A stretch of 64,000 bases of DNA from Candidatus Lindowbacteria bacterium RIFCSPLOWO2_12_FULL_62_27 (GTDB lineage Bacteria; Lindowbacteria; 2-12-FULL-62-27), in the NCBI GenBank assembly GCA_001784175.1, contig MFPR01000013.1, positions 1 through 64,000 of the forward strand, written 5' to 3'. Below are positions 1 to 32,817 of the stretch, in pieces. How positions within the stretch are numbered: the stretch's first letter is position 1; every line of letters begins with the position of its first letter. A program made the position numbers and the translations under genes. The notes under the pieces are model-generated. The model worked only from the letters and a program-made list of their open reading frames with translations. It ran no database searches and was not told the DNA's origin.

Positions 1-3000
1 CGCGGATTCGTGACGGATACGCAGGCCGGCGTCGTGACGCTGTCGCAGCCTGCGGACGGCCACGAGACGGCGGCGATCAATTTCTATGTGAGCTGGCAGG
101 CGACGGCCGACAGTGTGGGGATCGCCAACTACGCGGTGGAGGTCGACAAGAGCACGGCATTCACGACGATGATCTTCACCGACACGGTGGCGGGTGGCGT
201 CACGGCCGACCGTGTGACGGGTCTGTACAACGACACATACTACTGGCGCGTTCGCGCGATCGACGATCTGGGCAACGGCGGCGCCTATTCAGCGGCGCGC
301 GGGTTCGTGACGGACACGCTGGTCGCTGCCGTGACGCTGTCGCAGCCTGCGGACGGGCATGAGACGACGGCAACGACGGTACCGGTCAGTTGGACGGCCG
401 TGACGGACAGCGTCGGGATCGCCAACTACGCGGTGGAGGTCGCCAGGAACACGACGTTCACGACGATGGTCTTCACCGACACGGTGGCGGGCGGCGTCAC
501 GGCCGACACCGTCACGGGTCTGTACAACGACACGTACTACTGGCGCGTGCGTGTGATCGACGATCTGGGCAACAGCGGCGTGTATTCGGCGACACGAGGC
601 TTTATGACGGATACGCTGGTCCATGCCGTGACGCTGTCGCAGCCTGCGGACGGCCACGAGACAACGGCAACGACAGTGTCCGTCGGTTGGACGGCCGTGA
701 TGGACAGCGTAGGGATCTCCAACTACGCGGTGGAGGTCGCCAAGAACACGACATTCACGACGATGGTCTTCATTGACACCGTGGCGGGTGGCGTCACAGC
801 CGACACCGTCACGGGTCTGTACAACGACACGTACTACTGGCGCGTGCGTGTGATCGACGATCTGGGCAACAGCGGCGTGTATTCGGCGACACGAGGCTTT
901 ATGACGGATACGCTGGTCCATGCCGTGACGCTGTCGCAGCCTGCGGACGGCCACGAGACGGCGGCGATCAACCTCTATGTGAGCTGGCAGGCGGCGGCCG
1001 ACAGCGTTGGGATCGCCAACTACGCGGTGGAGGTCGACAAGAGCACGGCATTCACGACGATGATCTTTGCCGACACGGTGGCGGGCGGCGTCACGTCCGA
1101 CAGTGTGACGGGCCTGTACAACGACACGTACTACTGGCGCGTTCGCGCGACCGACGATCTGGGCAACAACGGCGCCTATTCGGCGACGCGTGGATTCGTG
1201 ACGGACACACGGGTCAACGCCGTAACGCTGTCTCAGCCGGCGGACGGCCATGAGACGACGGTCGCGACGGTGCCGGTCAGTTGGACAGCAGTGACGGACA
1301 GCGTGGGGATCGCCAACTACGCGGTGGAGGTCGCCAAGAACACGACGTTCACGACGATGGTCTTCACCGACACGGTGGCGGGCGGCGTCACGTCCGACAC
1401 GGTGACGGGTCTGTACAACGACACGTACTACTGGCGCGTGCGCGCGATCGACGATCTGGGCAACAGCGGCGTCCACTCGGCGACGCGGGGATTTGTGACG
1501 GACACGCAGGTCGCCGCCGTGACGTTGTCGCAGCCGGCGGACGGACATGAGACGACAGCGATCGATGTCCGGCTGAGCTGGCAGGCGCCGGCCGACAGCG
1601 TGGGGATCGCCAACTACGCGGTGGAGGTGTCGAAGAGCACGTCCTTCACGTCGATGGTGTTCACGGACACGGTGTCAGGCGGCGTTACCGCCGATACCGT
1701 TACCGGCCTGTACAACGACACGTATCACTGGCGCGTGCGTGCGATCGACGATCTGGGCAACAGCGGGACGTATTCAAGCGCCCGGGGATTCGTGACGGAC
1801 ACGCAGGTCGCCGCCGTGACGCCGGCACAGCCTGCGGATGGACATGAGACGGCGGTGATCGACATTCAGGTGAGCTGGTCAGCCGTGGCGGACAGTGTTG
1901 GGATCGCGAATTACGCCGTGGAGGTATCGAAGAGCACGTCTTTCACGACGATGACGTTCACGGACACGGTCGATGGGGCGCGTGGGAGCGACACGGTGAC
2001 GGGCCTCTACAACGACACGTACTACTGGCGCGTGCGCGCGATCGATGACCTGGGCAACAGCGGCGCCTATTCCACGGCCCGCGGCCTGATGGTGGACACG
2101 GCCGTGCGGAAGGTGACGCTCGCCGACCCGCCGCCGGGGTCGGTGACTGCTGATACCACGCCGACCCTCACTTGGACCGCGATCACGGACAGCGCAGGCG
2201 TCGATAGTTTTGCCATCGAAGTTTCAACCACAACCGGATTCACGGCCCTCAGCTTCGCCGACACGGTGGATGGACCGCTCACCAGCGGCGCCGTGACCCC
2301 CGGACTTGTCACTGACACCTATTACTGGCGCGTCCGCGCCTTTGACGTGCTGGGCAATGCCGGCGCCTGGTCGGATTCGTTCCGGCTGAGAATCGATACC
2401 GTCCAGACATCGATCACCCTGATCGGCCCGGCGGATGGACATGAGACCAATGCGGCCGCGGCACGATTCGTCTGGGCGGGCGCCAACGCAGATACCTACA
2501 CATGGCAGCTTTCCAAATCGTCCGCGTTTTCAACGCTGGTGGACGCGGTGGCCGGCACCACCGTCACGTCCATGAACCGGCCGATGCCCGATCCGGATAC
2601 GTTCTATTGGCTGGTCATCGCACAGGGTCTGACGGGGTACGACACATCCGCCGCGCGGGGAATCCTCCTCGACACCAGCGCTGGCCAGCCGGCCCTCCTG
2701 CAGCCGGCCGAGGGGCACGAAACGTCGAATGCAACCCCGCAGGTTACCTGGTCCGCCGTTTCGGACAGCGTCGGAATCGACAGCTACGCGCTGGAAGTCT
2801 CCAGGAACACGGCGTTCACGGCCATGTCGTTCGCCGACACGGTGGATGGCGGACTCACAAACGACACCCTGACCGGCCTCTACAACGACACGTATTATTG
2901 GCGCGTGCGCGTCGTCGACGATCTCGGCAACATCGGCATCCATTCGTCCATCCGTGGGTTTGTCGTCGACACGCACGTAAACACCGTGGCTCTGTCACAG

Positions 3001-6000
3001 CCGGCCGACGGGCACGAGACGACGAATGTGAGCGTGGGGGTGTCGTGGGCGGCGCTGACAGACAGCGTCGGGATCGATTCGTACGTGATAGAGGCGTCAA
3101 AGACGATCGCGTTTACGACGACCGTGTTTGCGGATACGACGGATGGGACAAGTACGGCGGATACAATCACGGGCCTGTACAATGACACGTACTACTGGCG
3201 CGTTCACGCGATCGATGATCTCGGCAACGCCGGCGCCGCCTCGGCCCCACGTGGATTTGTGACGGACACGCTCATCGATGCCGTCACGCTCTTGCTGCCG
3301 GCCGACGGCCACGAAACCCGCGCCGTCAATTTCCGCCTGAGCTGGAACGCCGTGCCGGACAGCGTCGGGATCGATTCTTACGCGATAGAGGCGTCAAAGA
3401 CGGGTGCGTTTACGACGACCGTGTTCTCGGATACTACGGATGGGACAAATACGACGGATACCATCACGGGCCTGTACAACGACACGTACTACTGGCGCGT
3501 GCGCGCGATCGACGATCTCGGCAACGGCGGGGCCTATTCGGCCGCGCGTGGGTTCCTGATCGACACCGGAGTTTCTCAGGTCACCGTTACGCAGCCCGCG
3601 GACGGCCACGAAACCACCGTGTCGAGCCTGGAGGTTGGCTGGGCCGCCATCACGGCGGATTCGTCAGGGATCGACTCCTACGTGCTGGAAGCCTCCAAGT
3701 CGAGCGCTTTCGGCGTCGTTATTTTCGCCGATACGGTGGACGGCGTCCGACTGAGCGACACGCTGGCCGGATTGTACAATGACACTTATTTCTGGCGCGT
3801 CCGGGCCGTCGACCACCTTGGCAATCTTGGCGCATTCTCGGCGGCGCGGGGATTTGTGACCGACACGCTCGTCGGACAGGTCAGCCTGCTCCTGCCGGCG
3901 GACGGCCACGAAACAGCCGTGGCCCAACCGGGTGTGCAGTGGACGGCGCTTCCGGACAGCGTCGGAATCGACTCGTATGCCGTGGAAGTCTCCAAGAGCC
4001 TGGCCTTCTCCCCCGTCGTCCTCGCCGATACGCTGGACGGGTCTTCGACGATGGATACTCTGCCGGGTCTCCAGAACGACACGTACTTCTGGCGCGTGCG
4101 CGCGATCGACGACCTCGGCAACGCCGGCGCCTACTCGGCCGCCCGCGGGCTGATCCACGACTCGCTGGCCGGCGCCGTCACGCCGGTGTCGCCGGCGGAC
4201 GGCCATGAAACGACCGCGACGAGCGTGGTGGTGTCATGGAGCGCCCTGAGCGACAGCGTCGGAATCGCCACGTACGCCGTGGAGGCGTCGCGTGGGTCGG
4301 CCTTCACATCGCTGGCATTCGCCGAAACCGTCGCCGGCAGCCGAACCAGCGACACGCTGGCCACGCTGTACAACGATACCTACTACTGGCGCGTCCGCGC
4401 GACGGACGGACTCGGCAACAACGGCGCGTATTCGGCCGCCCGCGGATTTGTGGTCGACACGGCGGTTGCGGTCGTGACGCTTTCGGCGCCCGCGGACGGC
4501 CATGAAACGACTGCGAGCGAAATTCTTCTGCGCTGGGCCTCCGTGTCCGACAGCGTCGGGATCGACAGCTACGCCGTGGAGGCTTCACGAAACGCCGCCT
4601 TCACGAACATGGTCTTCACCGACACCGTCGACGTCGCCCTCACGTCCGACACCGTGACCGGGCTGTACAATGACACCTGCTTCTGGCGTGTCCGGGCCAT
4701 CGACGATCTCAGCAACGCCGGCGCCTACTCGACCACGCACGGATTCGTGACCGACACGATTGTAAATCAGGTGGCGCTCCTGCTGCCGGCCGACGGGCAC
4801 GAGACATCCACCGTGAATTTCCGCCTGAGCTGGATCGCCGTCTCGGACAGCGTGGGCGTGGACAGTTACGCGCTCGAGATCTCAAAGATCTCGTCGTTCA
4901 CGCCGATGGCCTACGCGGATACCGTGGACGGCGTGACCATCACCGACACGTTCACGGGTCTGTACAACGACACGTACTTCTGGCGTGTCCGCGCGGTTGA
5001 CGATCTCGGCAACGGCGGCGTCTACTCGGCCGCGCGTGGTGTGCTGATCGACACGGCCGTGTCGCAGGTGACGGTTGCCGCTCCGGCCGACGGACACGAA
5101 ACGACGGCGGTCGCGGTCGTGCTGTCCTGGATTGCAGTGGCCTCCGATTCGAGCGGGATCGATTCCTATGTGGTGGAAGTTGCGAAGCAGATCGGATTCG
5201 ACACGACAGTTTTCGCCGACACGGTGAGGGCGTCCATCCTCGCCGATACGATCACCGGCCTGTATAATGACACCTACCACTGGCGGGTCCGCGTGATTGA
5301 TCACGTGGGCAATCTCGGCGTGTTCTCAATCACCCGGGGATTCCTGGTTGACACGGCCGTGGCGGCGGTGAGCCTGCTCCTGCCGGCCGACGGGCACGAG
5401 ACGTCCGCAACCGAGTTCCGCCTGCGCTGGAGCGCCGTGTCGGACAGCGCGGGCGTGGACAGTTACGCGCTCGAGATCTCAAAGAGCACGGCCTTCGCCC
5501 CGGTCACCTACGCGGACACCGTGGACGGATCGGCAACCGATGACACCATCACGGGCGTTTCCAACGACACGTACTTCTGGCGCGTGCGCGCGATCGATGA
5601 CCTCGGCAATGGCGGCGCCTATTCCGCGATCCGAGGGTTCATCGCCGACACCCTCGTCCAGACGGCCGTCGCTCTGGCGCCGGCGGACGGGCATGAGACG
5701 ACGGCCGGGCAGGTCGTGGTGAGCTGGTCGGCGGTGCCGGACAGCGTCGGGATCGCGAGCTACGCCGTGGAGGCCTCGAAGTCCGCCGCATTCTCGACAC
5801 TCGCGTTTTCCGACACGGTGGCCGGCGGCCTCACCAGCGATACGGTCACGGGCCTCTCCAATGACACCTATTACTGGCGCGTCCGGGTGACCGACGACCT
5901 CGGCAACGGCGGCGCCTATTCGACGGCGCGAGGCTTCGTGGTCGACACAACGGCCGCGCAGGTCAGCGCGCTCGCTCCGGCCAATGGCCACGAGACGACG

Positions 6001-9000
6001 GCGACCGCGATCGTCCTCTCCTGGTCAGCCGTGCCGGCCGACTCGGTCGGCATCGATTCGTATGCGGTCGAAGCCGCCCGGAACGCCGCATTCACGGCGA
6101 TGGTCTTCGCCGACACGGTCGATCAGGCGCTCACGGCCGACACGGTGACCGGCCTCTACAACGACATGTACTACTGGCGCGTCCGGGCCGTCGACGGCCT
6201 GGGCAACGCCGGCGCGGCGTCCACCCCCAGGGGATTCGTGGTCGATACGCAGGCCGCTCAGGTCAGCCTGTCATTGCCGTCGGACGGCCACGAGACAACC
6301 GCGACCTCCTTCCTCGTATCCTGGGCCGCCGTCGCGGACAGCGTCGGGATCGACAGCTACGCCCTCGAAGTCTCCAAGAGCGCCGCCTTCGGATCGATCG
6401 CGTATGCGGACACGGTGGGGGGCACGTCCCTCGCCGACACCATCGGGGCGCTGGACAACGACACGTACTTCTGGCGGGTCCGCGCGATCGATGACCTCGG
6501 CAACGTGGGCGCCCATTCAGCCGTGCGGGGCTTCCTCGTCGACACGGCCGTCGCGCAGGTTGCGCTCCTCTCGCCGGCCGACGCGCATGAGACGACCGCC
6601 GGCGCGCTGACGCTCAGTTGGTCGGCGATCGCGGCGGATTCGGTGGGCGTTGATTCCTATATTGTAGAAGTGGCGAAAACGCCGGCCTTCGCCACGACGA
6701 TCTTCGCTGACACGGTCGACGGGAGCCTCACGAGCGACGCCGTCACCGGCTTGTACAACGACACGTACTACTGGCGCGTCCGCGCGATCGACGAAGTCGG
6801 CAACGCCGGCGTCCATTCCGCCCCGCGGGGCCTCATGACCGACACTCTCGTCCAGACGGTATCCCTCGTCGCGCCGGCCGACGGGCATGAAACCACGGCA
6901 ACGCCGATCAGCCTCGCATGGGCCGCGCTGTCCGACAGCGTGGGTGTGGACAGTTTCGCCGTCGAGGTCTCCAAGAACGCTTCCTTCACCTCCATCGTCT
7001 TTGTCGACACGGTGGACGGCCAGGCGCTGTCGGATACCGTCACCGGACTGTACAACGACACGTACTTCTGGCGGGTGCGCGCCGTGGACGACCTCGGCAA
7101 CGGCGGCGCCTATTCGGCAACGCGCGGATTCCTGGTTGACACGGCCGTCGCCAAAGTGACGCTGGTCAGCCCGCCGGCCGGGACCCTGACCGGCGATACA
7201 ACGCCGACCCTTGTGTGGAACGCGGTCACAGACAGCGCGGGCGTCGATTCGTACGCGCTCGAAGTTTCGACGAGCTCTGCGTTCGCCGCGATCACATTCG
7301 CCGATACGGTCGACGCCGCGCTCACCGCCGATACGGCCGCGCCCGGGCTCGACTCCAACACCTATCACTGGCGCGTCCGGGCCATCGATGATCTGGGCAA
7401 CGTCGGCGCGCCCTCCGACTCGCTCCATTTCAGAATCGACACGACGCCAACCCTCGTGACGCTGCTCAGCCCCGCGGCCGGGCACGAAACAAACGCGGTG
7501 ACCGTCCGCTTCGAGTGGATCGCCACGAGCGTCGACACCTATACGTGGCAGCTCTCCAAGTCGCCTGCCTTCTCGACCATCGTGGATTCGGCGCCCGATA
7601 CGACGGCGACAACAGTCGTCAGAGTTCTCTCGCACGAGGATACCCTCTACTGGCGCGTCATCGGCCTCGGCATCGGCGGGTCCGACACGACGGCGGCCCG
7701 CGGCATTCTGCTCGACACGGGCGTTGCGGTGGCCGTGGCGGCAACGCCCGCCGACGCGCATGAAACCTCCGCGGCGGTTCCGGGCGTCGGCTGGCAGGCA
7801 CTGGCCGACAGTGTCGGGATCGACTCCTACGCCGTCGAGGTCTCCAAGTCCACCGCCTTTACGAACGTCGTGTTCGCCGACACGGTCGATGGAGTGCGCG
7901 TGTCCGACACGATTCCGGGCCTCCACAACGATACGTACTTCTGGCGCGTCCGGGCCATCGATGATCTCGGCAACGCCGGCGCCTACTCCGCCGCCCGCGG
8001 GTTCCTCGTTGACACGGTCGTCTCGCAGGTCGCGGCCGTCGCGCCCGCGGACGCGCACGAAACGGCCTCCGGGATGATCACCGTCGGCTGGACCGCGATC
8101 GCGGACAGCGTCGGGATTGATTCCTACGCAGTTGAAACCGCCAAGACCTCCGCGTTCGCAACGACCGTGTTTGCCGACACCGTCGACGGCTCGCAGACCG
8201 CCGACACCCTCACGGGCCTCTACAACGACACGCACTACTGGCGCGTGCGCGCGATCGACGATCTCGGCAACGCCGGCGCCGCCTCCGCCGCGCGTGGATT
8301 CCTCGTCGACACCGCCGTCACGCAGGTCGCGCTGGCCAGTCCCGCGGACGCGCACGAGACGACGGTCACGTCGGTCGTCCTTCAGGTTTCAGCCGTCACC
8401 GACAGCGTGGGGATCGATTCGTATGTCTTCGAAGCGTCGAAGACACCGGCGTTCTCGGCGATCGTCCTCGCCGACACCGTCGACGGCGCCGTCACGGCCG
8501 ACACGATCGCCGGCCTGTACAACGACACGTACTACTGGCGCGCGCGGGCGGTCGACGATCTCGGCAACGCCGGCGCCTATTCAACCGTGCGTGGATTCCT
8601 CGTCGACACGGCCGTCGCGCAAGTCGCGCTGGTGGCGCCGGCCGACGGGCATGAGACCGCCAACGCGTCGCCCGTGTTGAGCTGGTCGGCGGTGCCGGAC
8701 AGTGTGGGGATCGATTCGTATGTGATCGAGGCGTCGAAGACGGGTGTGTTTACGACGACCGTGTTTGCGGATACGACGGATGGGACAAATACGGCGGATA
8801 CAATCACGGGCTTGTACAATGACACCTATTTCTGGCGCGTGCGCGCGATCGACGACCTCGGTAATGCCGGCGCCTATTCCGCAACCCGCGGATTCCTGAT
8901 CGACACGCTCGTGTCGCAGGTCTCGCTGCTGCTGCCGGCGGACGGCCACGAAACAACCGCCGCGACGTTCCAGGTCCGGTGGAGCGCCGTGACCGCCGAT

Positions 9001-12000
9001 TCGGCGGGCATCGATTCGTATGCGATTGAGATTTCGCGCACGGCCGCGTTCACGGCCCTCACCCTCGCCGACACACTCGACGCGGCGCTGACGTCGGATA
9101 CGGCCGCCGGACTCGACAACGACAGCTACTTCTGGCGCGTCCGCGCGATCGACAACCTTGGCAACGCCGGCGCCTACTCCGCCGCGCGCGGATTCGTGGT
9201 CGACACGCGGACGGGCCAGCCGGCGCTGGTGGCGCCGGCGGACGCGCACGAGACATCCGCCGGATCGCTCCTCGTCCAGTGGGCGGCGCTCGCCGACAGC
9301 GTCGGGATCGACAGCTTCGCGGTGGAGGTGTCCAGGAACACGGCGTTCACGGCCCTCGCCGTTGCCGATACGCTGGCCGGCGACGCCACGACCGACACCC
9401 TGGCCGGCCTCTCGAGCGACACCTACTACTGGCGCGTCCGAGCGATCGACGATCTCGGCAACGCCGGCGCTTACTCCGCCGCCCGCGGATTCCTGATCGA
9501 CACCCTGGCCGCTCAGGTGACGCTCGCGGCGCCGGCCGACGCGCACGAGACGCGCGCCACCACGCTGGTCCTGACGTGGAACGCTGTGGCGGACAGTGTT
9601 GGGATTGATTCGTATGTGATCGAGGCGTCAAAGACGGGCGTGTTTACGACGACCGTGTTTGCGGATACGACGGACGGGACAAATACGGCGGATACAATCA
9701 CGGGCTTGTACAATGACACCTACTTCTGGCGTGTCCGCGCGGTCGACGATCTCGGCAATGCCGGCGCCCATTCCGCGTCGCGCGGGTTCCTGGTCGATAC
9801 CGCCGTCGACCAAGTCGCGACGATTTCGCCCGCGAACGCGCACGAGACATCCGTGGCGGCTGTCACGGTCCGCTGGTCGGCCCTGACAGCGGATTCCGTC
9901 GGTGTGGACTCCTACGCGGTGGAGGTTTCCAGGAATTCGGCTTTCGCTCCTCTGGTGTTCGACGATACGGTCGACGCGGCCTTCGCGTCTGACACGGTCA
10001 CGGGACTGTACAACGATACTTACTTCTGGCGCGTCCACGCCGTGGACCATCTCGGCAACGGCGGCGCATACTCCGCGACGGCCGGATTCCTCGTCGACAC
10101 CGCCGCAGCCAGGGTCTCGCTGGTCAGCCCGGCGACCGGATCGGTGACCTCCGACACGACGCCCGCCTTTACCTGGAACACGGTCGCGGACAGCGTCGGG
10201 GTCGACAGTTACGTCATTGAGGTTTCCGCCGGCCCCGCGTTCGCCACGATCGCCTATGCCGACACGGAAGACGGAGCCGCAGGCGCCGACACGGTCACGC
10301 CAGGACTCAACCCGGGACTCTATTATTGGCGTGTCTCCACGGTCGACGACCTGGGCAACCGCAGCGTTCCGTCGGACTCCTTCACGCTCCTCGTCGACAC
10401 CGCCCTGCCCGTCATCGCGCTCTTGAAGCCGTCTTCCGGCCACGAAACCAACACGCCGGCGATCCTGTTCGAGTGGATGGGTGACAACGCTGAAACCTAT
10501 ACGTGGCAACTGTCCAACACCATCGGCTTTTCGGCCGTCCTCGATTCCGTGGTCGACACGATCGGCACATCCGTCGTGCGGACGTTGCCGGCGCAGGACA
10601 CGTTCTACTGGCGCGTGATCGCAAAGAGCATCGTCGGCCTGGTCGATACCTCGACCGTGCGCGGGTTCGTTCTCGATACATCCGTGGCCCAGATCGCATC
10701 AAGCCTGCCGGCGGATGGGCATGAGACGTCCAACGCCGCACCGCGGGTCTCCTGGCTGGCCGTGTCGGACAGCGTTGGCATCGATTCCTACGCGATCGAG
10801 GCCTCCAAGACCGCCGCGTTCGCCGCGATTGTGTTCGCCGACACAATCGACGGCGCCCTCACGGCCGACACGATCACCGGATTGCACAACGACACGTACT
10901 TCTGGCGCGCCCGCGCGATCGACGACCTCGGCAACGGCGGCGCCTACTCCGCCGCCCGCGGATTTGTGCTCGATACCTTCACGGCGGCAGTCTCGGCAAC
11001 GGCGCCGGCCGACGCGCATGAGACGTCCAACGCAACGCCGACGGTCTCGTGGCTGGCCGTGCCGGACAGCGTGGGCATCGATTCCTACGCGATCGAGGCC
11101 TCCAAGACGGCCGCGTTCGCCGTGCTCGTGTTCGCCGACACGATCGACGGCGCCCTCACGTCCGGCACGATCACGGGACTGCACAACGATACGTACTTCT
11201 GGCGCGTCCGCGCGATCGATGACCTCGGCAACGCCGGCGCCCACTCGCAGGCCCGCGCCTTCCTCGTCGACGACACGGCCGCCAAGGTCTCGCTCGCGTC
11301 GCCCGCCTCCGGGACGATCACCGGCGACACGACGCCGTCGCTCGCTTGGACGGCGGTGACCGACAGCGTCGGCATCGACTCCTACGCGCTCGAACTCTCC
11401 GCCGGCCCCGCCTTCTCGACCCTCGCCTTCGCCGACACGGTCGATGGCGCGCGCACGTCCGATACGGTCCTGCCGGGCCTCCCGATGGATACCTACTTCT
11501 GGCGCGTGCGTGCGATCGACGATCTCGGTAATCGCGGGCCTGCGTCCGACTCATTCGTCATCCGCGTCGACACTTCGCCCACGCTCGTGACGCTCGTCCG
11601 CCCGGCCGCCGGACATGAGACGCGCGCGGCCACGGTGCGATTCGAGTGGACCGCCCTCAATGCCGACACCTATACCTGGCAGCTCTCTCGCACGGCCGCC
11701 TTTACGGCGCTCGCCGATTTCGTCACCGACACCACCGACACGTTCCTCGTCCGGACCCTGCCGGGAGAGGACACGTTCTTCTGGCGCGTGATCGGCCTTG
11801 GGGTTGGCGGGTACGACACCGCGTCGGCCCGCGGACTCCTGCTCGACACTTCGACCCGCCAAGTCACGCTCCTCGCGCCGGGCGACGGCCATGAGACCTT
11901 CAACGCCCTCGTGGTCGCAAGCTGGACCGCTCCGGCCGACAGCGTCGGCATCGACACCTACGCGCTTGAGGTTTCCAGAAGCCAGGCCTTCTCGCCGCTG

Positions 12001-12150
12001 ACGTTCACCGACACGGTCGACGCGTCGATGACTTCCGCCACGCTGCTCGGCCTCTATAACGATACCTACTACTGGCGCGTGCGGGCGATCGACCTCCTCG
12101 GCAACGAGGGCGCATTCTCGGCCGCACGCAAGATCGTGACGCTCGACACC
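1..12150 (+). repeat. About 41 tandem coding repeats of about 297 bp
   Basis: Direct tandem repeats lie inside the giant gene. The spacing is 297 bp between the copies around 534 and 831, where more than 100 bases match almost exactly (535-660 against 832-957). Copies near the 5' end of the window are much more alike at DNA level than those after about base 5000. Some distant copies share short, nearly identical patches (see findings). Confidence 0.93.
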
Positions 12151-13839: not shown

Positions 13840-16800
13840 GTAGCTCGATGCGGTTCCGCCGGATCCTGATCGCGGCCCTCGGTCTCGGCCTCGCCGTCCT
13901 CTCCGTCCGCCCGCCCGTTGCGCTGGCCGGTGCCCAGTCCGGCGGCGTGGTCGATCCCAGCGCGGTCCTCGGATTCGGCACGCGCGCCGGCGCCATGGGC
14001 AACGCCTTCGTCGCGCTCGGGGACGACGCCACGGCTGTCTTCTGGAACCCCGCCGCGCTCGATCTCAGCCGCCGCAAGGAAATCTTCGGCCAGTACTCGC
14101 AGGCATTCTTCGACAAATCATCCTACAACCTCGTCGCCTACAAGCATCCGCTCGGGCGCTTTGGCACCGTCGGCGGAGGCCTCATCATCGAGGGCGTCCA
14201 GGACCTGACCCGGCGCGACGTCAACGCGGCCAACATCGGAAACTTCAACGTCAACAAGACCAATCTCATGTTCAGCTATGGCAAAGAAGTGGTCGAAGGC
14301 TTCTATCTCGGCTCGACCCTCCGCGTCCTCCGCCAGCAGATCGCCGAGTTCTCCGGCACAGGCGTCGGCCTCGACGTCGGAACGCTCTACCGCTTCACCA
14401 ACCGCTACGTCGAATACAGCCGCGCGTATCTCCGGCTCGCGCGCGAGCAGATCCGCCAGGACGCCGAACGCGAGTTCTCGCTCGGCCGGCGCGCAAACGA
14501 GAGCGGCCACTCCAACGGCCACGCGATGGCCGAGTTCCTCAAGACCCACGGTCAGAACGGCGCACTGCGCGATCTGCGCCTGTGGTTCGACGAGGGCGTC
14601 AAACTTTACGACGCCGGTCGCATCAAGGACGCCGTGCCCTTCTTCGAGGCTGTCATTCGCAACGCGCGCGCCAACCTCCTGACCGACCGGCTCGCGCTCG
14701 GACTCAATATTCAAAACCTCCTGCGGCCGTCCCTCAAGCTCAAGAGCACGGCCGACCGCGTGCCGACCATCTTCAAGTTCGGCAGCGCCTACCGGATCGC
14801 CGACTGGTTCAACCTTGCGCTCGATCTCGACGTGCCGTCCAAAGGCGACCACCGCGTCCACTTCGGCGCCGAATGGAAACCCATCGAGTGGCTCGCGGTC
14901 CGCGCCGGGCTTGACCACAAGGACCCGACCTTCGGGTTCGGGTTCCGGTACCAGGACCTCAAGATCGACTACTCCTTCACGCCGTCCGACGACCTCGACA
15001 ACGACTTCCAGCGCGTCGGCATCTCGTACGAGTTCGGCAAATCTCACGGCGATGTCGCGGTTGAGCGCATCCAGCGCGGCCTCACGCTCCAGTCACGCAG
15101 GGAATACTCGTCCGCCAGGCAGGAATGGGAAAGCGCGCAGAAACTCCAGCCGACCAATCCGCTGCCCCGCCGATACATCCAGGAGACCGAAGAGGCCTAT
15201 CGCAAGAACGTCACCGAACCGTGGTCGGCCGCCGAACGGCTCGTCGCCGCGGGCCGGCTCTCGGAGGCGCATCCGATCCTGCAGGCCATCCTCACGTTCG
15301 ACCCGGCATTCGATCCGGCCCTCAAGGCGATGGGGTCCCTCAAGGCTGCCGTTCCGGCCTACGCCGAGTCCCACTTCAACGCCGGCTACCTGAAATATCT
15401 CCAGAACGATTATGTCTCCGCCCTCGAAGAGATGACCCACGTCCTCTTCTTCGTGCCCGAGCACGCCTCCGCCCGGCAGTATCGCGACGCCGCTCGAAAA
15501 CGCTCGGACGAGGAGGCCGGCCGCGCGGCCACGCGCGAACTCTTTGACGACGCCGTCCGGTCGTACCGCGCCGGCCGCTGGCCCGACGCGCTCTCGCGAT
15601 TCCAGGCGGTCCTCCGCCGCGATCCGACCCACGCCTCGGCCGGCGGATTCCTCGACCAGATCGCGCAGTTCCAGGCCGCGGACTTCAGCCCCGAGGAGAG
15701 AAAACTCGAATCGGACCGATTCTTCCGAATCGCACAGGCCGACTTCCTCGACGATCACACCATCGAAGCCGAACAGGCCGTGTCCAACAGCCTCTCCCTC
15801 TGGCCGGACAACGCCGACGCGCAGAATCTCCTCACGCGCATCGAGGCCATGCAGAACCGCATTCTCCTCGGCGCGCTCCAGGCCGCGGACGAGCGCATGG
15901 ACAGAGGCGACATCGACGCGGCCGTCGCCGGATGGCGGCGGGTCCTCGACAAGTCCCCGCGCAATTTCGACGCCATGCGCAGGCTCGAACGGCACGTGGA
16001 CGACATCCGCGCGTTCGTCGAGGCCAGTCTCCGCCTCGCCGAACGGCTCGAAAAGGACGGCGCGCTGGTCGACGCGCTCAAGCTCTACAACCGCGTCCTC
16101 GCGGTCGATCCCTTCAACGCCGCCGCGGCAGAGCGGCGCGCCGCGGTCCGGCCGGCGATCCTCTCCAAACTCGAGAGGATCTATCAGGACGCCGAGTCGC
16201 TCTACCGCTCGGGAGAGCTTGAAAGGTCCATGGCCCTCCTCTCCGACCTCATGGCCATTGACCCCGATTTGACACAGGCGCGGGACCTCAAGGAGATCGC
16301 ACGCGAGAAATTCGAGCTCAACGTCTCGCTCGTGCGCGTCAAGCGCCTCTACAACGAGGGCCTCGAATTTTTCCGCCAGCGCAACTACGAGCAGGCCGTC
16401 GCCACATGGCGGCAGATCGTCGCCCAGCCGACCGACCTGCCCGAGGTCCGGGACCTCGCGCAGGAGGCCGCCGCGCGGATCGCCGAGGCTGTCCGCGAGG
16501 CCGAACGCGAGCGCGCCGCGTCCTTCTACGACGAATATCTCCGCCGCGGCGACGCCTTCCTCGCCGAGGGCCGGGATGTCGAGGCGCTGGAGGCGTTCAA
16601 GTCCGCTCAGGAGCTTCAGCCCGAAAATGTCAGCATCCAGTGGCGGATCGCGACGGCCAAAAAATCCGTCGAGGATCGCCTCGCCGCATGGGTCCGCCAG
16701 GGAACGGAGGCCTTCGAACTCGGGCGACTCGACGACGCCGAGTCCCTCTTCCGCGCCGCCGTCCATGTCGATCCGGACCGCGCCGACGCCCTCGCGGGCA

Positions 16801-17324
16801 TCGATCGCGTTCTGGCGGCGCGCAGCGCGGCCGCGGCGGCCGCGGCGCCCCCGGCGCCGGCCGAGGAACCCGCCGCGCCGGTCGAGACGCGCGAGACTCC
16901 GAAACCGCCCGACACCCGCGACCGCATCGACCGCATCCTCGCGCGCGCGGCGGACCTCCGCCGCAAGGCCGCGGCCGTCGAGCAGAGCCGGCCGGACCTC
17001 GCGCTCAGCAGAGCCAAAAACGCGCTCGAGGCCTGCCGCGAAGCCCTCCGGATCGACGCGGCAAACGAAGTCGCCCGGCAGGTGCAGTCGGCCGTCACCG
17101 CCGACATCGCGCGGCTCCAGAAGGTCCTCAAGGAGAAAAACGCGGCTGACATCCAGAAGTTCCTCTACTCCGGCATGGGCCACTACCGCGCCGGCCGGCT
17201 CAACGAAGCCATCGCCGACTGGAACCGCGTCCTGTCCCTCGACGCGGACCACGCGCAGGCCCGCGAGTACATCCGCCGCGCCGAGAAAAAACTCGAATTG
17301 TTGAACGCCCCCGAAGCGCCGTGA
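13836..17324 (+). CDS. PorV/UPF0164-like outer-membrane barrel fused to TPR repeats
   Basis: The start ATG 13836 overlaps the preceding TGA; a second in-frame ATG lies at 13848. The product has 1162 residues. An N-terminal signal peptide (about residues 5-32) is followed by a segment with GFGTRAGAMGNAFVALGDD and ATAVFWNPAAL, the hallmark of PorV/PorQ/UPF0164 outer-membrane barrels, to about residue 395. An amphipathic helical/TPR stretch (about residues 188-285, including FDEGVKLYDAGRIKDAVPFF) is inserted inside the barrel region. From about residue 400 to the end there are many TPR-like helices, broken near residues 995-1030 by an Ala/Pro-rich linker. In type IX systems PorV shuttles cargo to the surface; here the adjoining giant protein is the obvious candidate cargo (inference). 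The TPR part probably faces the periplasm as a protein-binding scaffold. Confidence 0.82.
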   Translation: MSSSMRFRRILIAALGLGLAVLSVRPPVALAGAQSGGVVDPSAVLGFGTRAGAMGNAFVALGDDATAVFWNPAALDLSRRKEIFGQYSQAFFDKSSYNLVAYKHPLGRFGTVGGGLIIEGVQDLTRRDVNAANIGNFNVNKTNLMFSYGKEVVEGFYLGSTLRVLRQQIAEFSGTGVGLDVGTLYRFTNRYVEYSRAYLRLAREQIRQDAEREFSLGRRANESGHSNGHAMAEFLKTHGQNGALRDLRLWFDEGVKLYDAGRIKDAVPFFEAVIRNARANLLTDRLALGLNIQNLLRPSLKLKSTADRVPTIFKFGSAYRIADWFNLALDLDVPSKGDHRVHFGAEWKPIEWLAVRAGLDHKDPTFGFGFRYQDLKIDYSFTPSDDLDNDFQRVGISYEFGKSHGDVAVERIQRGLTLQSRREYSSARQEWESAQKLQPTNPLPRRYIQETEEAYRKNVTEPWSAAERLVAAGRLSEAHPILQAILTFDPAFDPALKAMGSLKAAVPAYAESHFNAGYLKYLQNDYVSALEEMTHVLFFVPEHASARQYRDAARKRSDEEAGRAATRELFDDAVRSYRAGRWPDALSRFQAVLRRDPTHASAGGFLDQIAQFQAADFSPEERKLESDRFFRIAQADFLDDHTIEAEQAVSNSLSLWPDNADAQNLLTRIEAMQNRILLGALQAADERMDRGDIDAAVAGWRRVLDKSPRNFDAMRRLERHVDDIRAFVEASLRLAERLEKDGALVDALKLYNRVLAVDPFNAAAAERRAAVRPAILSKLERIYQDAESLYRSGELERSMALLSDLMAIDPDLTQARDLKEIAREKFELNVSLVRVKRLYNEGLEFFRQRNYEQAVATWRQIVAQPTDLPEVRDLAQEAAARIAEAVREAERERAASFYDEYLRRGDAFLAEGRDVEALEAFKSAQELQPENVSIQWRIATAKKSVEDRLAAWVRQGTEAFELGRLDDAESLFRAAVHVDPDRADALAGIDRVLAARSAAAAAAAPPAPAEEPAAPVETRETPKPPDTRDRIDRILARAADLRRKAAAVEQSRPDLALSRAKNALEACREALRIDAANEVARQVQSAVTADIARLQKVLKEKNAADIQKFLYSGMGHYRAGRLNEAIADWNRVLSLDADHAQAREYIRRAEKKLELLNAPEAP

Positions 17325-17355
17325 TAGGCTCTGATCCAGGAGGTGCGACGACGCC

Positions 17356-18918
17356 ATGCGGCTGCCTTTGAAGGCGAAATTCAGCGGGTTGGTCCTCGGC
17401 CTGGTCATGGTCATCCTCGTCTCCATCTGGACCCTCAGCGTCTATGAGCAGTCCAAGATGGAGCGATCGATCGCCGAACAGCAGCGGTCCACCATGCGGG
17501 ACGAACTCACCAAACGCGCAACCAATATCCTCGCGTTTCTGTCCGCTAACAGCGAGGCCCTCGCTATCGGCGATTACCTCACGGTCGACGCCTTCGTCCG
17601 TGATCTCTCCACGAGCCCCGACATACGGTTTATCCATATCGTCAAGGACGGCCGGCTGATCGTCCCGCTTCAGGACGGCGCGCCGCCCCGGTATCAATTG
17701 CCGCGCGGCGTCAAGCCGGCCGGCGGCGCCATGCACTTCGAAATGGTCGATGGCGCCGGCGTCGATTCCGAGCCGCTCATCATCGTGTCCGGACCCATCG
17801 TCGACAAAACCATCCGGCGCCGTGTCGCGGAGGCCTACGTCGGCATTTCGAGACTGCCCGTGCGCGACGCCATCGAGTCGGCCCAGGCGCGCGTCAAGGA
17901 GTCCGGCCGGATCGCCCGGTACGAGTTCACCTTCGCCACCCTCCTCTTTGCGATCCTCGGCGTGGTCGGGTCCGTCATCCTGGTCGCATTTGTCCTGCGG
18001 CCGATCAACATCCTCACCCGCGGCGCCAAAATCATCGGCCAGGGGAATCTCAACCACGAGGTCGTCGTGCGGACCAATGATGAAATCGGCGACCTCGCGC
18101 ATACCTTCAACGTCATGACTCGCAACCTTCGCGAGGATCAAGTCAAGCTCATCGAAAAACAAAAGCTCGAACAGGAAATAAAAATCGCCATGCAGATCCA
18201 GCAGACCCTCCTCCCCAAGTCGCTCCCCAACGCGCCCGGATACAGTTTCGGCGCCGTCTACGGCGGCGCCCGCGAGGTCAGCGGCGACTATTACGACTTC
18301 CTGGATATCCGGTCCAACGGCCGGCCACGCATCGGTGTCGTGGTCGCCGACGTCGCCGGCAAAGGCATCCCCGGCGCTTTCATGATGGCCGTTACGCGCA
18401 GCATCCTCCGCGCGCAGGCGCCCGTCTCTGATTCCCCCGCGCAGGTCCTCAAACTGACCAACGGCATCCTTCAGCCCGACCTGAAAAAGGGAATGTTTGT
18501 CAGCATGGTCTACGGAATCCTGGACGTTCAATCCGGTCACATGGAATTGAGCAGCGCGGGGCATTGCCCGTCCCTCGTGTACCGCGCCGGCTCCGGCTCG
18601 GTCGAGACGGTGCGCTGCAAGGGCATCGCGCTGGGGATCGGCGCTGCGCAGTTGTTCGAGCGGCGCATTGAATCCAAGACGGTGCCGCTGGCGCCCGGCG
18701 ACATTTTTTTTCAGTACACAGACGGCATTCAACATGCTATGAATATAGAGGAGAACCGTTTTGGGATGGACCGGCTCATGGCCTGTCTTCGCGAGTTCAA
18801 CCCGGGAGACGCCCAGTCCCTGGTGGCCCGCATCCTTGAGCGGATCAACTCATTTACGGCCGGATTTCCGCAGTTCGACGATATCACCATGGTCGCCATC
18901 AAGCGGGACCGGGCATAG
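17356..18918 (+). CDS. Membrane HAMP-PP2C (SpoIIE/RsbU-type) serine phosphatase
   Basis: 520 residues; ATG 17356 has a strong Shine-Dalgarno GGAGGTG at 17339-17345. One membrane helix (about residues 7-29), an extracytoplasmic sensor segment and a second helix (about 193-217) lead into a HAMP linker (about 218-265) and a short coiled coil. The SpoIIE-type PP2C domain (about 270-520) retains its metal-binding signatures: SGDYYDF, VVADVAGKG, FQYTDG and FDDITMV. RsbU-type enzymes dephosphorylate a STAS antagonist protein, and the next gene encodes one, so this is probably the input phosphatase of a partner-switching cascade sensing a periplasmic signal. It lies 31 bases after the PorV-like gene. 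Confidence 0.92.
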   Translation: MRLPLKAKFSGLVLGLVMVILVSIWTLSVYEQSKMERSIAEQQRSTMRDELTKRATNILAFLSANSEALAIGDYLTVDAFVRDLSTSPDIRFIHIVKDGRLIVPLQDGAPPRYQLPRGVKPAGGAMHFEMVDGAGVDSEPLIIVSGPIVDKTIRRRVAEAYVGISRLPVRDAIESAQARVKESGRIARYEFTFATLLFAILGVVGSVILVAFVLRPINILTRGAKIIGQGNLNHEVVVRTNDEIGDLAHTFNVMTRNLREDQVKLIEKQKLEQEIKIAMQIQQTLLPKSLPNAPGYSFGAVYGGAREVSGDYYDFLDIRSNGRPRIGVVVADVAGKGIPGAFMMAVTRSILRAQAPVSDSPAQVLKLTNGILQPDLKKGMFVSMVYGILDVQSGHMELSSAGHCPSLVYRAGSGSVETVRCKGIALGIGAAQLFERRIESKTVPLAPGDIFFQYTDGIQHAMNIEENRFGMDRLMACLREFNPGDAQSLVARILERINSFTAGFPQFDDITMVAIKRDRA

Positions 18919-18933
18919 GAGCGAGGTGTAAAC

Positions 18934-19281
18934 ATGGAATTCAAAGTGGAGGTCGGGCCGGCGTCCTGGAAGCCGGACATCACCGTCATCAAACTCTTTG
19001 GATCCGTCGACGCCCAGACCGCGCCGCTGTTTGAAAAAGAGGCGATGGCGGCGGTCGGCAAGGGCAAGAAAAAGGTTTTGGTGGATTGCGCCGGTCTCGA
19101 TTTCATTTCCAGCGCGGGCATCGGCGTCTTTATGGTGATCCTGAGCGAAGTCGAGGCCGAGGGATTCCTCAGGGTGATGAATCTTTCCGACGAGGTCTAC
19201 GAATCGTTTGAAATTCTGGGAATCAACGAGGTCATGGAGATCTACAAGGATGAAAAAGACGCCCGGCGCGCCATCGCCTGA
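18934..19281 (+). CDS. STAS-domain anti-sigma factor antagonist (RsbV/SpoIIAA-like)
   Basis: 115 residues, ATG 18934 preceded by GGAGCGAGGTG. It is a single STAS domain with the core DCAGLDFISSAGIGVFMV; the serine pair in FISSAGIG is where family members are phosphorylated by the HATPase kinase and dephosphorylated by the PP2C partner. It lies between the phosphatase gene and the kinase gene, and its 3' end overlaps the kinase start by 32 bases, suggesting translational coupling and controlled stoichiometry. The target of the switch (sigma factor or another effector) is not in the window. Confidence 0.93.
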   Translation: MEFKVEVGPASWKPDITVIKLFGSVDAQTAPLFEKEAMAAVGKGKKKVLVDCAGLDFISSAGIGVFMVILSEVEAEGFLRVMNLSDEVYESFEILGINEVMEIYKDEKDARRAIA

Positions 19282-19708
19282 GCGGCGGGTCGCCATCTCC
19301 ATCCAGCTCGTCGCCGACTTCAAGAGTCTCCTGAAGATCCGCCGCGCCGTCATGGCCCAGGCCACCATCATTGGCGCGCGGCGGTCGATCATCTACCGGA
19401 TCATCCTGGCCGTCGAGGAGGCTTGCTCCAACATCATCCGCCATGCCTACCGGAAACATGAACCCAAAACCATCTGCGTCGACATCGAGGCCACGCCGCA
19501 AAAAATGAATATCGTCATCCGCGACGTCGGCAAGGCATTCGATTTTCAGAAATATCCCGCGCGCGCGGTCGCGCAAAACGCCATCCGGCGCCGTTCCAAG
19601 GGCGGATACGGCATCCACCTGATTAAATCCCTCGTCGACAACTACGAGTACATCCGCAGCGACAACGGCGAAAACCATCTGAGGCTCGTCAAACGCCTCC
19701 GCAATTGA
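19250..19708 (+). CDS. HATPase anti-sigma-type serine kinase (RsbW/SpoIIAB-like)
   Basis: 152 residues from ATG 19250, which lies inside the end of the STAS gene; the frame is open further upstream, but that part only overlaps the STAS gene in another frame. The Bergerat ATP-binding fold is complete: N-box AVEEACSNIIRHAY, G1 box IRDVGKAFDF and G2 box KGGYGIHLIKSLVD. RsbW-type proteins bind and phosphorylate a STAS partner and, when free, sequester a sigma factor or other target. It forms a complete kinase/antagonist/phosphatase triad with the two preceding genes. The stop overlaps the TTG start of the next gene. Confidence 0.92.
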   Translation: MKKTPGAPSPERRVAISIQLVADFKSLLKIRRAVMAQATIIGARRSIIYRIILAVEEACSNIIRHAYRKHEPKTICVDIEATPQKMNIVIRDVGKAFDFQKYPARAVAQNAIRRRSKGGYGIHLIKSLVDNYEYIRSDNGENHLRLVKRLRN

Positions 19709-22044
19709 CCGGGACCGTTCCGGCAGGATCGTCGGCGTCCCACGAAGATCGCCAGGCGCGGCTCGATGTCCGGTTCCTGCGTGAAATGGCGGCGCAGATT
19801 AAAAACAAGACCAGCCTCCATGAACTCTTCGAAACGTTCCTCCTCACGCTCATGGGCCGGTTTCAGTTCCTCCGCGCCGCCATCTATCTGCCGGCGGCCG
19901 AGCCCTCGCGGTTCCGCATGTTTTTGTCCAAAGGCGCCGTCCCGACGGGCGGGCTTCCCGATCTCATCCGCATCGAGGATCTGCCGGACGAAACGCCCCT
20001 CCTGAAACTCGTGGACCTCCCCGTCCTCGATCCCGGCGGCGTCTTCTCCCGCGCCCAATTCTCATGCGCTCGGGTCATCGCCTGGACGCCCGAACCCGGC
20101 CGGCCCCTCCGCCGGCAGGGAATCCTCCTGCTTGGATCGCCTCGACCCGTGCGTTTCACGGCGGCCGGAAAACTTTTCCTGGAATTGATCTGCGGTCAGG
20201 TCACTCAGGTGCTCGCCGGCAGTCTTGGCGGGATCCTCGAACGCATTCAGGATTTGGAGCGGCGCAGCGACCTCGTGCGCGACAGGGGACAACAATCTGC
20301 GCCACAGCGGCGGCGCGGCATTTCCCGCGAGGATATTCTCCATTCACAAAACCTCCAGACGCTCCAGGATATCGCGTTCCGATTCAAGGGCGGCGTCAGC
20401 CTCCAGGAATTGTTCAGCACCTATCTTTTGACCCTCATGGGCCGCCTCCGGCTCAAACGCGCGGCCATCTACGCCTCGACCATGCCTGCCAGCCGGTTTA
20501 TCCGGTTGCTCGTCAAAGGCCGCTCGGGACGGCGGGACTTGCCGGAGACGGTGACGATCGATGAGATTCCGGGGAATCTTGTCTGGGGATCCCTGCGGGA
20601 CTATCCCGCGTTGAACCCCGGAAACGTTTTCGGCCGGGAAGGCCTGTCGCTCGTGTGGGTCCTCTCAAGAGACGCGCCGCCGGAAGACGCGCCCTCGGAC
20701 CTGCATCCGGACGCCATGGTGTTCATGGGCGCTGACGGAGATATCCAGCTCACGCCGGCCAACGTCAAGTTCATCGAAATTCTCAATCAGCAGATTGTCG
20801 GTATATTGAAACTGCTCGACAGCGTCGCCTCAGGTCACGCGGCCCCTGGACGCGAAAGCCGCGCGGGACTTCTGGACTGGGACAGCAATCTCTCCGTCCT
20901 CGTGCGCGAGGGCGTCGACGACCTCGGGTTCCTCCAGGAGGCCGGCATTCGGCACAGGATTTTTTATCGCCCGGCCCACAAGGTCGGCGGGGACTTTTAC
21001 GACGTCTTCCCGCTCGACGGAGGCCGCATCGCCGTCGTGCTCGCGGACGTCGTCGGACACGGCATTTCGGCCGCCATGTGGACTCAGGCCATTCGGGACC
21101 ACCTCCGGCACATGGTCGCCTCCGACGCCGGCCCCGCCGCCTCCGAACCCGCCGCAGTTCTGCGGGCGCTGAACGGCGTTCTGGCCGGACATGAGAAAAG
21201 CGAGATCCCTGTTTCCGTCTGCTATGGGATCATGGACCCGGCCCGATCGACGTTCACGTATGCTTCCGCCGGCATTCACTTCCCAATGCTCTTTCGCGCG
21301 CGCGCCGACGCCGTGATCGAACTGCCGGCCGGCGGGCTCTTCCTCGGGTGCCTGCCCGACATCCAGTTCTCGCAGGAAACGCTTCACATTGAGCGCGGCG
21401 ACCTCCTCGTCCTGTACACGGACGGCCTGCATCACCTCACAACCGATGCTTGGCGGACGGAGGCCCGCGAGTCCATCGGAAGAAATGCCGCGGATCCGGA
21501 GAAAATACTGGATGAAGTATTGAAGCTGACTGCGCTGTCCGGCGAGGAGCCGGAATCGCCCGCCGACGACAGGACCGCCCTCCTCTTCCTTGCGGACTTC
21601 CCGGGCGTACCCGATGGATTCCGGCGGCGGCTGGTCATGCCGGCGGATGTCCGCCATCTGCCGGCGCTTCGAAGCTTCATCGCCAGCCTCCTCGGCGCGT
21701 GTGGAAATATTTCGAGAGATGAGGCCTTCGCCATCTCCTTTACGTCGGAAGACGTCGTTCTCAACGCCATTCAGCACGGGTATAAGGGCCGCGCGCAAGG
21801 TGTCATTGCGTTTGAAGCACGCATGGCGAGGGATCACCTCGAGTTTGAGGTGTCCGACCTGGGCCGCGGCTTTGAGTTCGATCCGGGCCGCATCCCCAAA
21901 TTTGTCGACGACACGGATCTCTACCGGCCCAACGGCCGCGGGCTGTATATGATGTTCCAGTTGATGGACGAGGTCAAAGTCGACAGCAAGCCGGGACTCG
22001 GCACGACCGTGCGCATGGTCAAGTACTTCAAAGGCGCCCGCTGA
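19705..22044 (+). CDS. Duplicated-sensor + PP2C phosphatase + HATPase fusion protein
   Basis: 779 residues if started at TTG 19705 (TTGA overlap with the previous stop); ATG 19786 is a shorter alternative. Two related N-terminal modules of about 170 residues each carry the same signature (LHELFETFLLTLMGRF and LQELFSTYLLTLMGRL, each followed by RAAIY), suggesting tandem GAF-like sensors; I do not recognise the family firmly. A SpoIIE-type PP2C domain follows (about 405-600: VGGDFYDVF, VLADVVGHG, LYTDGLHH, DDRTALLF). A C-terminal HATPase domain (about 640-779) has SEDVVLNAIQHGY, VSDLGRGFEF and NGRGLYMMFQLMDEV. It thus combines phosphatase and kinase in one chain, with the second STAS protein encoded immediately downstream. 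No membrane segments are seen. Confidence 0.88.
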   Translation: MTGTVPAGSSASHEDRQARLDVRFLREMAAQIKNKTSLHELFETFLLTLMGRFQFLRAAIYLPAAEPSRFRMFLSKGAVPTGGLPDLIRIEDLPDETPLLKLVDLPVLDPGGVFSRAQFSCARVIAWTPEPGRPLRRQGILLLGSPRPVRFTAAGKLFLELICGQVTQVLAGSLGGILERIQDLERRSDLVRDRGQQSAPQRRRGISREDILHSQNLQTLQDIAFRFKGGVSLQELFSTYLLTLMGRLRLKRAAIYASTMPASRFIRLLVKGRSGRRDLPETVTIDEIPGNLVWGSLRDYPALNPGNVFGREGLSLVWVLSRDAPPEDAPSDLHPDAMVFMGADGDIQLTPANVKFIEILNQQIVGILKLLDSVASGHAAPGRESRAGLLDWDSNLSVLVREGVDDLGFLQEAGIRHRIFYRPAHKVGGDFYDVFPLDGGRIAVVLADVVGHGISAAMWTQAIRDHLRHMVASDAGPAASEPAAVLRALNGVLAGHEKSEIPVSVCYGIMDPARSTFTYASAGIHFPMLFRARADAVIELPAGGLFLGCLPDIQFSQETLHIERGDLLVLYTDGLHHLTTDAWRTEARESIGRNAADPEKILDEVLKLTALSGEEPESPADDRTALLFLADFPGVPDGFRRRLVMPADVRHLPALRSFIASLLGACGNISRDEAFAISFTSEDVVLNAIQHGYKGRAQGVIAFEARMARDHLEFEVSDLGRGFEFDPGRIPKFVDDTDLYRPNGRGLYMMFQLMDEVKVDSKPGLGTTVRMVKYFKGAR

Positions 22045-22370
22045 TGGCGTTCGAATTTCAGGAAATCTCCCCCACGGCCGGCGTCCTCCGCACCGGCGTG
22101 GATGTCCGGCCGGAAAATATCGAAGGATACCGGAAAAAATTATACGAACTGTGCGAGCGGAAAAATTTTACGCTCTATCTCGACATGGCCGGCGCCGAAC
22201 ACCTCTCGTCCTGGGCCATCGGCGTCACGGCGCTCGCGGCCCAGAAAATCAGGCAAAACGGAGGAAATCTCAAAATGTACGGCGCCGGCGATAACCTCAA
22301 ACGCATCCTCAAATACTCGCGCCTCGACATGATCATCGAGGCCTCCTCCGACCCGCCCCCGGCTCAGTAA
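22044..22370 (+). CDS. Second STAS-domain antagonist protein
   Basis: 108 residues; ATG 22044 overlaps the TGA of the fusion gene. The STAS core is YLDMAGAEHLSSWAIGVTAL, with a serine pair at the position phosphorylated in SpoIIAA-like proteins but a Trp where many family members have Ala or Gly. It is the natural partner of the PP2C+HATPase fusion upstream, giving the locus two STAS/kinase/phosphatase circuits. Its 3' end overlaps the convergent phosphatase gene by 7 bases, and I see no terminator between them. Confidence 0.88.
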   Translation: MAFEFQEISPTAGVLRTGVDVRPENIEGYRKKLYELCERKNFTLYLDMAGAEHLSSWAIGVTALAAQKIRQNGGNLKMYGAGDNLKRILKYSRLDMIIEASSDPPPAQ

Positions 22371-32199: not shown

Positions 32200-32817
32200 T
32201 CAGGCGGCGCTCATGGCGCCGACCAGGGATTGAAAGAGCGGCGGGAGACGGCGCGCGTCGATCTCGCCCGGCGGCAGGCCTACACGCGCGGTGACGTTGG
32301 AAAAGAGCAGGTCATGGAAAGCGTCGGCCACAGGCGTGGGCTGCCTTTCTTTCAGAAGTTTTGACAGCGTGTAGACGGTTTTCATGAATTTCTCATGGGC
32401 TGCGATGACGTCCGTCAGTTTCTGCCGTTCCAGTTCTTCACGCTTCACGTCGCGCGCGATTCGGGAGGCCAGAAGCTCGGCCACGAACGTGCCGGCGCTC
32501 GGATACTGCGTGATGAGTTCCTTGAACTGCGCCGGCGTCAGCACGATCAACTGCGAGGCCTCCTCGACCCGCAGGGTGGCGCTCCGCTTCTGGGACAGGA
32601 GGGTCGACATCTCGCCCAGAATCGATCCGGCCTCCCGGAGGGTCGCGATCTTCGTGCCGCCTCGCAGCACCGCCACGCTGCCCTTCCGAAGGATGTACAG
32701 ATCCGTGCCGTCGTCGCCCTCGCGAAACAGGATCGTGCCGGTGGGATAGCCTTTTGTGAGTTGATGCGATTCCGCGTACTTGACGGCTTCACTTAGAAAC
32801 TCCTGCGATTCCATCAT
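32200..32817 (-). CDS. Cyclic nucleotide-binding domain protein without HTH
   Basis: 205 residues, ATG 32817 (a second ATG follows directly). Residues about 20-125 form a CRP-type cyclic nucleotide-binding beta roll: GTILFREGDDGTDLYILRKG, GSILGEMSTLLSQKRSATLR. A long helix follows (REELERQKLTDVIAAHEKFM), but the C-terminal domain has no recognisable helix-turn-helix. It is therefore probably not a transcription factor but a sensor or scaffold. The same domain type occurs twice in the 972-residue protein at 38270-41188. Confidence 0.85.
   Translation of the reverse strand: MMESQEFLSEAVKYAESHQLTKGYPTGTILFREGDDGTDLYILRKGSVAVLRGGTKIATLREAGSILGEMSTLLSQKRSATLRVEEASQLIVLTPAQFKELITQYPSAGTFVAELLASRIARDVKREELERQKLTDVIAAHEKFMKTVYTLSKLLKERQPTPVADAFHDLLFSNVTARVGLPPGEIDARRLPPLFQSLVGAMSAA

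Follow-up and report, generated by a model that had tools for sequence, protein, structure and literature searches.

The first seven genes of the window (the 64,000-nucleotide stretch analysed here, i.e. the first 64 kb of the 82-kb contig C13 of a Candidatus Lindowbacteria genome, G000; 4.39 Mb, 94% complete) combine two known kinds of system, a probable giant cargo-shuttle pair and a partner switch. We see an even chance that this operon makes, exports and regulates one giant surface protein. A literature search found no paper on the combination of a giant/PorV pair with a partner switch. If the proposal is true, it joins two fields that were unlinked in the literature found, type IX-like export of giant adhesins and sigma-free partner switching, and it extends SprA-type translocons to Candidatus Lindowbacteria, as opposed to a 2024 paper in which T9SS genes were stated to be absent outside the FCB phyla (PMC11285876). 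Since a candidate target lies in the same operon, the target question for a sigma-free partner switch becomes testable. The initial annotation had regarded the locus as a strong candidate for an undescribed system; this does not apply to its giant and barrel half, which is close to a described kind, namely T9SS cargo with its own shuttle.

Layout of the locus

All seven open reading frames lie on the plus strand between positions 1 and 22370, with inter-gene distances of -4, +31, +15, -32, -4 and -1 nt, in agreement with the co-directional, closely spaced arrangement described initially. The first encodes a giant FnIII-like repeat protein (1..13839). Contig C13 itself begins at position 1, hence the giant is truncated at its 5' end and its length of at least 4612 aa, which upholds the earlier estimate of more than 4600 residues for a surface-type protein, is a minimum. 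It is followed by a PorV/PorQ-family outer-membrane barrel of 1162 aa whose TPRs form an insert and a long tail (13836..17324) and by a five-gene partner-switching module: an RsbU/SiaA-like membrane sensor phosphatase with HAMP and PP2C domains (17356..18918), a first RsbV-like STAS protein (STAS1, 18934..19281), a stand-alone RsbW-like HATPase serine kinase (19250..19708), a PP2C-HATPase fusion protein (19705..22044) and a second STAS protein (STAS2, 22044..22370). The end of the operon is marked by a minus-strand gene that runs towards it and encodes an inositol monophosphatase (22364-23269, assigned by Pfam).

For comparison we used two relatives of the same family, each from a different genus: G001 (Candidatus Lindowbacteria nzgw232, JAHFCY010000173.1) and G002 (groundwater bacterium, JACQOF010000103.1). 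These groundwater bacteria are a poorly known lineage, assigned by NCBI to the candidate phylum Lindowiibacteriota. The likeliest start of the HATPase gene is the ATG at 19250, which gives an overlap of 32 nt with STAS1. Sequence comparison showed this overlap to be identical in all three genera, which points to conserved translational coupling. The gap between the PorV and phosphatase genes is 31 nt in the window and 34 nt in G002, and a consensus scan of positions 17325-17355 found no promoter-like site. Both observations speak against the idea of a chance neighbourhood of genes that do not form one operon, with a separate transcription unit hidden by the 31-base gap. We assign this idea little probability, even though the phosphatase of G001 has a different upstream neighbour and is thus expressible without PorV.

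The giant protein and its candidate shuttle

The giant contains 35 YYWR-type motifs, most of them spaced 99-100 residues apart, in repeats of about 99 residues that match fn3. Its C-terminus (13450..13839) is an Ig domain of the FlgD_ig or T9SS-CTD-like type, with scores of 28.6 for FlgD_ig and 13.6 for CHU_C (cut-off 27 for both). Nearly every giant tail examined ends with an Ig-like domain of the FlgD_ig/CHU_C/Por_Secre_tail kind, and two other giants pass PF18962, the Por_Secre_tail-type sorting domain. The last ~570 aa of the window giant have homologues only among giants on contigs C9 and C38 and in G002. These tails share 60-83% mutual identity, as against 24-31% to eight other giants, and a PorV gene with overlapping stop and start stands behind every giant of the class (4/4). 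The tails fall into these two classes, and three members of the second are instead followed by an overlapping gene for an Alginate_exp-family barrel (L069:4021-7176, L149:15544-18466 and L066:1600-4289). Genes of one FecR-domain family lie close behind these Alginate_exp-linked giants, with a Pfam hit at C14 and C19 and a homologous gene near C20. Altogether, G000 contains at least 12 giant FnIII-type open reading frames (contigs C6, C13, C14, C15, C19, C20, C22, C23, C32, C38 and C9), the largest of up to 9114 aa on C6. They occupy at least 184 kb (4.2%) of the genome, and many lie at contig ends, so their true sizes are larger.

The assignment of the downstream protein as a barrel with TPRs was confirmed: it scored 116.7 bits with NF033709, a model at the level of the PorV/PorQ subfamily (cut-off 90), and its barrel aligned with the solved PorV structure 6h3i_F (E=5e-4). 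The NCBIfam equivalog models for PorV, PorQ and PorV2 were not passed, the Pfam PorV model did not match, and a Pfam scan gave no PorP_SprF (PF11751) hit. An ordinary FadL-like porin or a scaffold unrelated to export of the giant would fit a protein that passes the subfamily-level model and fails the more specific ones. We consider this improbable in view of the strict pairing with one tail class, the occurrence of similar pairs of a large FlgD_ig protein and PorV in other lineages, and the SprA homologue described below. Two further full-length PorV/TPR copies in the genome (C9 and C38) each lie directly behind a giant, and in a PorV tree the window and G002 proteins group together, apart from the C9/C38 paralogues (support 0.999). 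We infer that the PorV/TPR barrel is a candidate dedicated (private) shuttle for the giant.

Among the other lineages, G239 has a PorV/TPR gene followed by genes for a FlgD_ig protein and an sCache-HAMP-adenylate cyclase (L136:6195-9814). A first HMM reading of this locus as PorV plus SpoIIE was rejected, since Pfam identified a HAMP-cyclase, and the locus was not counted as the same system; the membrane sensor enzyme that neighbours this PorV is of another kind. In G339 (L141:3-13240), a 3100-aa open reading frame is followed by PorV/TPR and by a 645-aa protein with FliF/FliG-like and TPR domains, i.e. flagellar motor-type domains adjoin the PorV pair.

With PF14349 (SprA_N), no SprA was detected in any of the three Lindowbacteria genomes; in a control over 290 genomes this model matched in 77 and still missed Lindowbacteria. 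A profile built from ten divergent SprAs, which itself matches solved SprA at 3e-85, revealed a homologue of 1825 aa at C20:84304 in G000 (3e-208; L182:12304-17781, minus strand) and another in G001 (2e-233; L184:114-5561), while the negative control was silent. Our reading that T9SS was absent, based on PF14349 alone, was consequently withdrawn. The homologue scores 1e-19 and 69 bits with the NCBIfam SprA model TIGR04189 (cut-off 200), and the divergent profile found none in G002 (81% complete). We read this SprA/Sov-family protein as a putative divergent type IX-like translocon.

A type IX-like route with the giant as its cargo is the best reading, because its tail class is found exclusively on PorV-linked giants and a divergent SprA/Sov homologue is present in the genome. 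By homology, the giant would cross the inner membrane by Sec; the barrel encoded downstream would recognise its C-terminal Ig-like domain, take it from the SprA/Sov-type translocon and keep it on the cell surface, the TPR tail, presumably periplasmic, serving as a handle. The pair resembles the Type B CTD cargo and shuttles of the type IX system, such as SprB/SprF of Flavobacterium (PMC12618676), in which a very large surface protein rich in repeats ends in a C-terminal sorting domain, the candidate counterpart of the Ig-like tail, and the gene for its outer-membrane shuttle follows directly. In Type B cargo, too, each class of CTD has its own class of shuttle, there PorP/SprF (PMC12618676); the SprA-family translocon of these systems has its candidate counterpart in the divergent homologue described above. 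In contrast to these pairs, the Lindowbacteria shuttle is of the PorV family and carries TPRs, its cargo tail is FlgD_ig/Type A-like instead of Type B, and Lindowbacteria lie outside the phyla with described T9SS (PMC11285876).

The partner-switching module and its possible outputs

Pfam detected two SpoIIE (PF07228; 152 and 121 bits), two STAS and two HATPase_c_2 domains (88 and 70 bits, cut-off 27.4) as well as a HAMP domain in the module. The two STAS proteins, two phosphatases and two kinases annotated initially thus stand as domains but not as separate genes, as one PP2C and one kinase belong to the same polypeptide (19705-22044). Catalytic motifs are intact throughout: the metal-binding motifs GDYYD/GDFYD, ADVxGKG/ADVVGHG, YTDG and DD of both PP2Cs, the N and G motifs of both HATPases, and the phosphorylatable serine of STAS1 (ISSAGIGV) and STAS2 (LSSWAIGV), which is conserved across the three genera. 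These motifs suggest that the module performs the corresponding phosphotransfer chemistry. STAS1 scored 59.7 bits with TIGR00377, the anti-anti-sigma superfamily model (cut-off 53.45). STAS2, with 35 bits versus 53, lies below this threshold yet over the Pfam STAS cut-off, and represents a divergent second STAS class conserved in all three genera.

The structure model of the sensor phosphatase (pLDDT 76) shows a TM-like helix, an extracytoplasmic domain of a helix plus five strands, a second long helix, HAMP and PP2C. From this secondary structure and a weak sCache_3_2 match in one of five homologues (E 0.0018), the extracytoplasmic domain appears Cache-like. When the model was compared with the PDB, PP2C folds dominated, the closest being Rv1364c RsbU-RsbW, SiaA and SpoIIE, and the search did not identify the sensor domain. 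For the fusion protein, the model has low confidence (pLDDT 57), so that "GAF-like" refers to the topology of its two putative N-terminal repeats and to nothing more. Searches for the fusion protein in 98 genomes returned only generic PP2C matches outside the family, and a search of viral contigs found nothing.

In the mechanism we propose, the HAMP phosphatase would read an extracytoplasmic signal via its Cache-like domain and dephosphorylate STAS1, which the HATPase would phosphorylate, the phosphorylation state deciding which partner is held. The fusion protein would carry out both reactions on STAS2, in response to a cytoplasmic signal perceived via its GAF-like domains. The module resembles RsbU-RsbV-RsbW and SpoIIE-SpoIIAA-SpoIIAB in its PP2C phosphatase, STAS protein with serine motif, HATPase kinase and overlapping genes, but differs in comprising two tandem modules, one of them with a PP2C-HATPase fusion, and in having neither a linked sigma factor nor a SigB/F/G-type sigma in the genome. 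Rv1364c-type RsbU-RsbW fusions (PDB 3ke6) also carry PP2C and HATPase domains on one polypeptide; here, however, the STAS partner is encoded by a separate downstream gene, two GAF-like repeats would form the N-terminus and a second, split module lies alongside. SiaABCD of Pseudomonas aeruginosa (PMC7647112), which controls aggregation, likewise has a sigma-free partner switch whose membrane phosphatase is of the HAMP-PP2C type and similarly folded. Unlike in SiaABCD, the kinase and substrate are RsbW/RsbV-type, no diguanylate cyclase is encoded in the operon, and the phosphatase scores 93 bits against a cut-off of 700 with the SiaA equivalog NF038263.

As noted initially, no sigma factor is encoded at the locus, and we found no sigma-70 gene anywhere on contig C13. 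Such modules were initially said to lie by a sigma factor as a rule, but its absence is not exceptional: partner switching unlinked to sigma factors is documented (PMC8256260, PMC7647112), and such modules are known to act on sigma factors, on a diguanylate cyclase (SiaD), through SypA on biofilm genes and through BtrUVW on type III secretion (PMC8256260, PMC7647112). The six sigma-70 factors of the genome are RpoD, an RpoD-like protein, FliA/WhiG, a SigH-like protein and two ECFs; none is encoded near the operon and none of the six exceeds the cut-off of TIGR02980, the model for SigB/SigF/SigG-type sigmas, in this 94% complete genome. The module is therefore as likely to have a non-sigma output, like SiaABCD or SypA, as a sigma target. 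A classical Rsb system, in which the HATPases act as anti-sigma factors on a sigma encoded elsewhere, most likely FliA/WhiG or the second RpoD-like protein, would agree with the superfamily score of STAS1, the RsbW-like character of the HATPase, the presence of both sigmas on other contigs and the control of the primary sigma by the Rsb network of Chlamydia, as reported in work cited in PMC8256260. As the contig lacks a sigma gene, the genome has none of SigB/SigF/SigG type above the cut-off and the HATPase scores fall far under the RsbW and SpoIIAB equivalog cut-offs, we judge a classical Rsb system rather unlikely.

Conservation of the module and its association with giants

The gene order was sought in other genomes and was recovered in G002. 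One contig of this genome (C105) contiguously encodes the giant, PorV, PP2C and the start of STAS1, with 54-60% identity to the window, and another (C72) begins in the PP2C 3' end and continues with STAS1, HATPase, fusion and STAS2. Each contiguity was seen directly; since C105 and C72 disagree in sequence where the PP2C gene ends, we joined them by inference. At this end, a dispersed-repeat-like insertion (VIPAKAGIQ in translation) extends the reading frame in C105 (L074:9900-10133 versus L024:1-300). In G001, the five signalling genes occur in the same order and are followed by an HDOD gene, the gene upstream encodes an unrelated membrane protein, and a fragment of its PorV homologue is found on a different contig. 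Thus, the module is present in three of three genera and is linked to giant-PorV in two of them. Its position behind an unrelated gene in G001 indicates that module and giant are separable and that their coupling is not obligatory; this is the chief counter-evidence to control of the giant.

The five genes could instead form a general lifestyle switch (e.g. sessile/motile) that acts elsewhere and is merely lodged behind giant-PorV, with the giant at most one of many outputs. The intact G001 module, without PorV in front and preceding an HDOD gene, is in line with this, as is the action in trans of the known sigma-free modules SiaABCD and SypA on second messengers or biofilm genes (PMC7647112, PMC8256260). 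We find this explanation possible but doubtful, since, at a protein identity of about 55%, two genera still share the linkage to an orthologous giant-PorV pair, and there are two more, differently arranged loci with a HAMP-PP2C gene near a giant.

These two further HAMP-PP2C genes of G000 lie 2-9 kb from a giant, on C38 and C32. On C38, a PEGA gene, PP2C, HATPase and a gene for a 634-aa protein are convergent towards giant-PorV, and no STAS was found at this phosphatase/kinase locus. On C32 (L063:2958-13473), a giant is closely preceded on its own strand by genes for a HATPase-like protein, STAS, PP2C and a PAS sigma-54 activator, with the PP2C 1.8 kb away; the signalling cassette next to this giant is of another type. 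Every HAMP-PP2C gene in the genome (3/3) thus lies within 8.8 kb of a giant, a distance at which the chance for a random non-giant position is p ~0.04 each (calculated post hoc). The PorV-linked giant on C9 has no module beside it.

Returning to a switch that controls the giant, periplasmic control, as postulated in the initial annotation, is plausible given the predicted Cache-like extracytoplasmic domain of the sensor phosphatase. From the translational coupling of the genes and the order kept across genera we conjecture that the switch tunes the giant's expression or release, via an output encoded outside the operon; this step of the mechanism is the least certain. Production or release of the giant may in this way be tied to a cell-envelope signal. 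A comparable logic operates in PorA-PorXY-SigP regulation of the Porphyromonas gingivalis T9SS (PMC7712824), in which signals from the surface or from secretion act back on how type IX components are expressed, albeit through a two-component system and an ECF sigma instead of a partner switch. In its most far-reaching form, which we put forward tentatively and regard as unlikely to hold in full, the locus would represent a type IX-like route outside the FCB phyla. A giant with a private PorV-type shuttle and periplasmic TPR arm would be controlled by a dedicated double partner switch reporting the envelope or export state, i.e. a phosphoswitch-gated secretion unit that is modular for several giants of one genome.

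Two observations were made in passing. A STAS-HATPase pair very similar to STAS1 and the HATPase of the window (2e-41 and 1e-33) lies on C28 beside a family B DNA polymerase gene (L147:12826-13627) and is a possible cross-talk partner. Farther downstream in the window, positions 38270-41818 encode an 1182-aa protein with two cyclic-nucleotide-binding domains, near a gene for a cNMP-binding protein (32200-32817).
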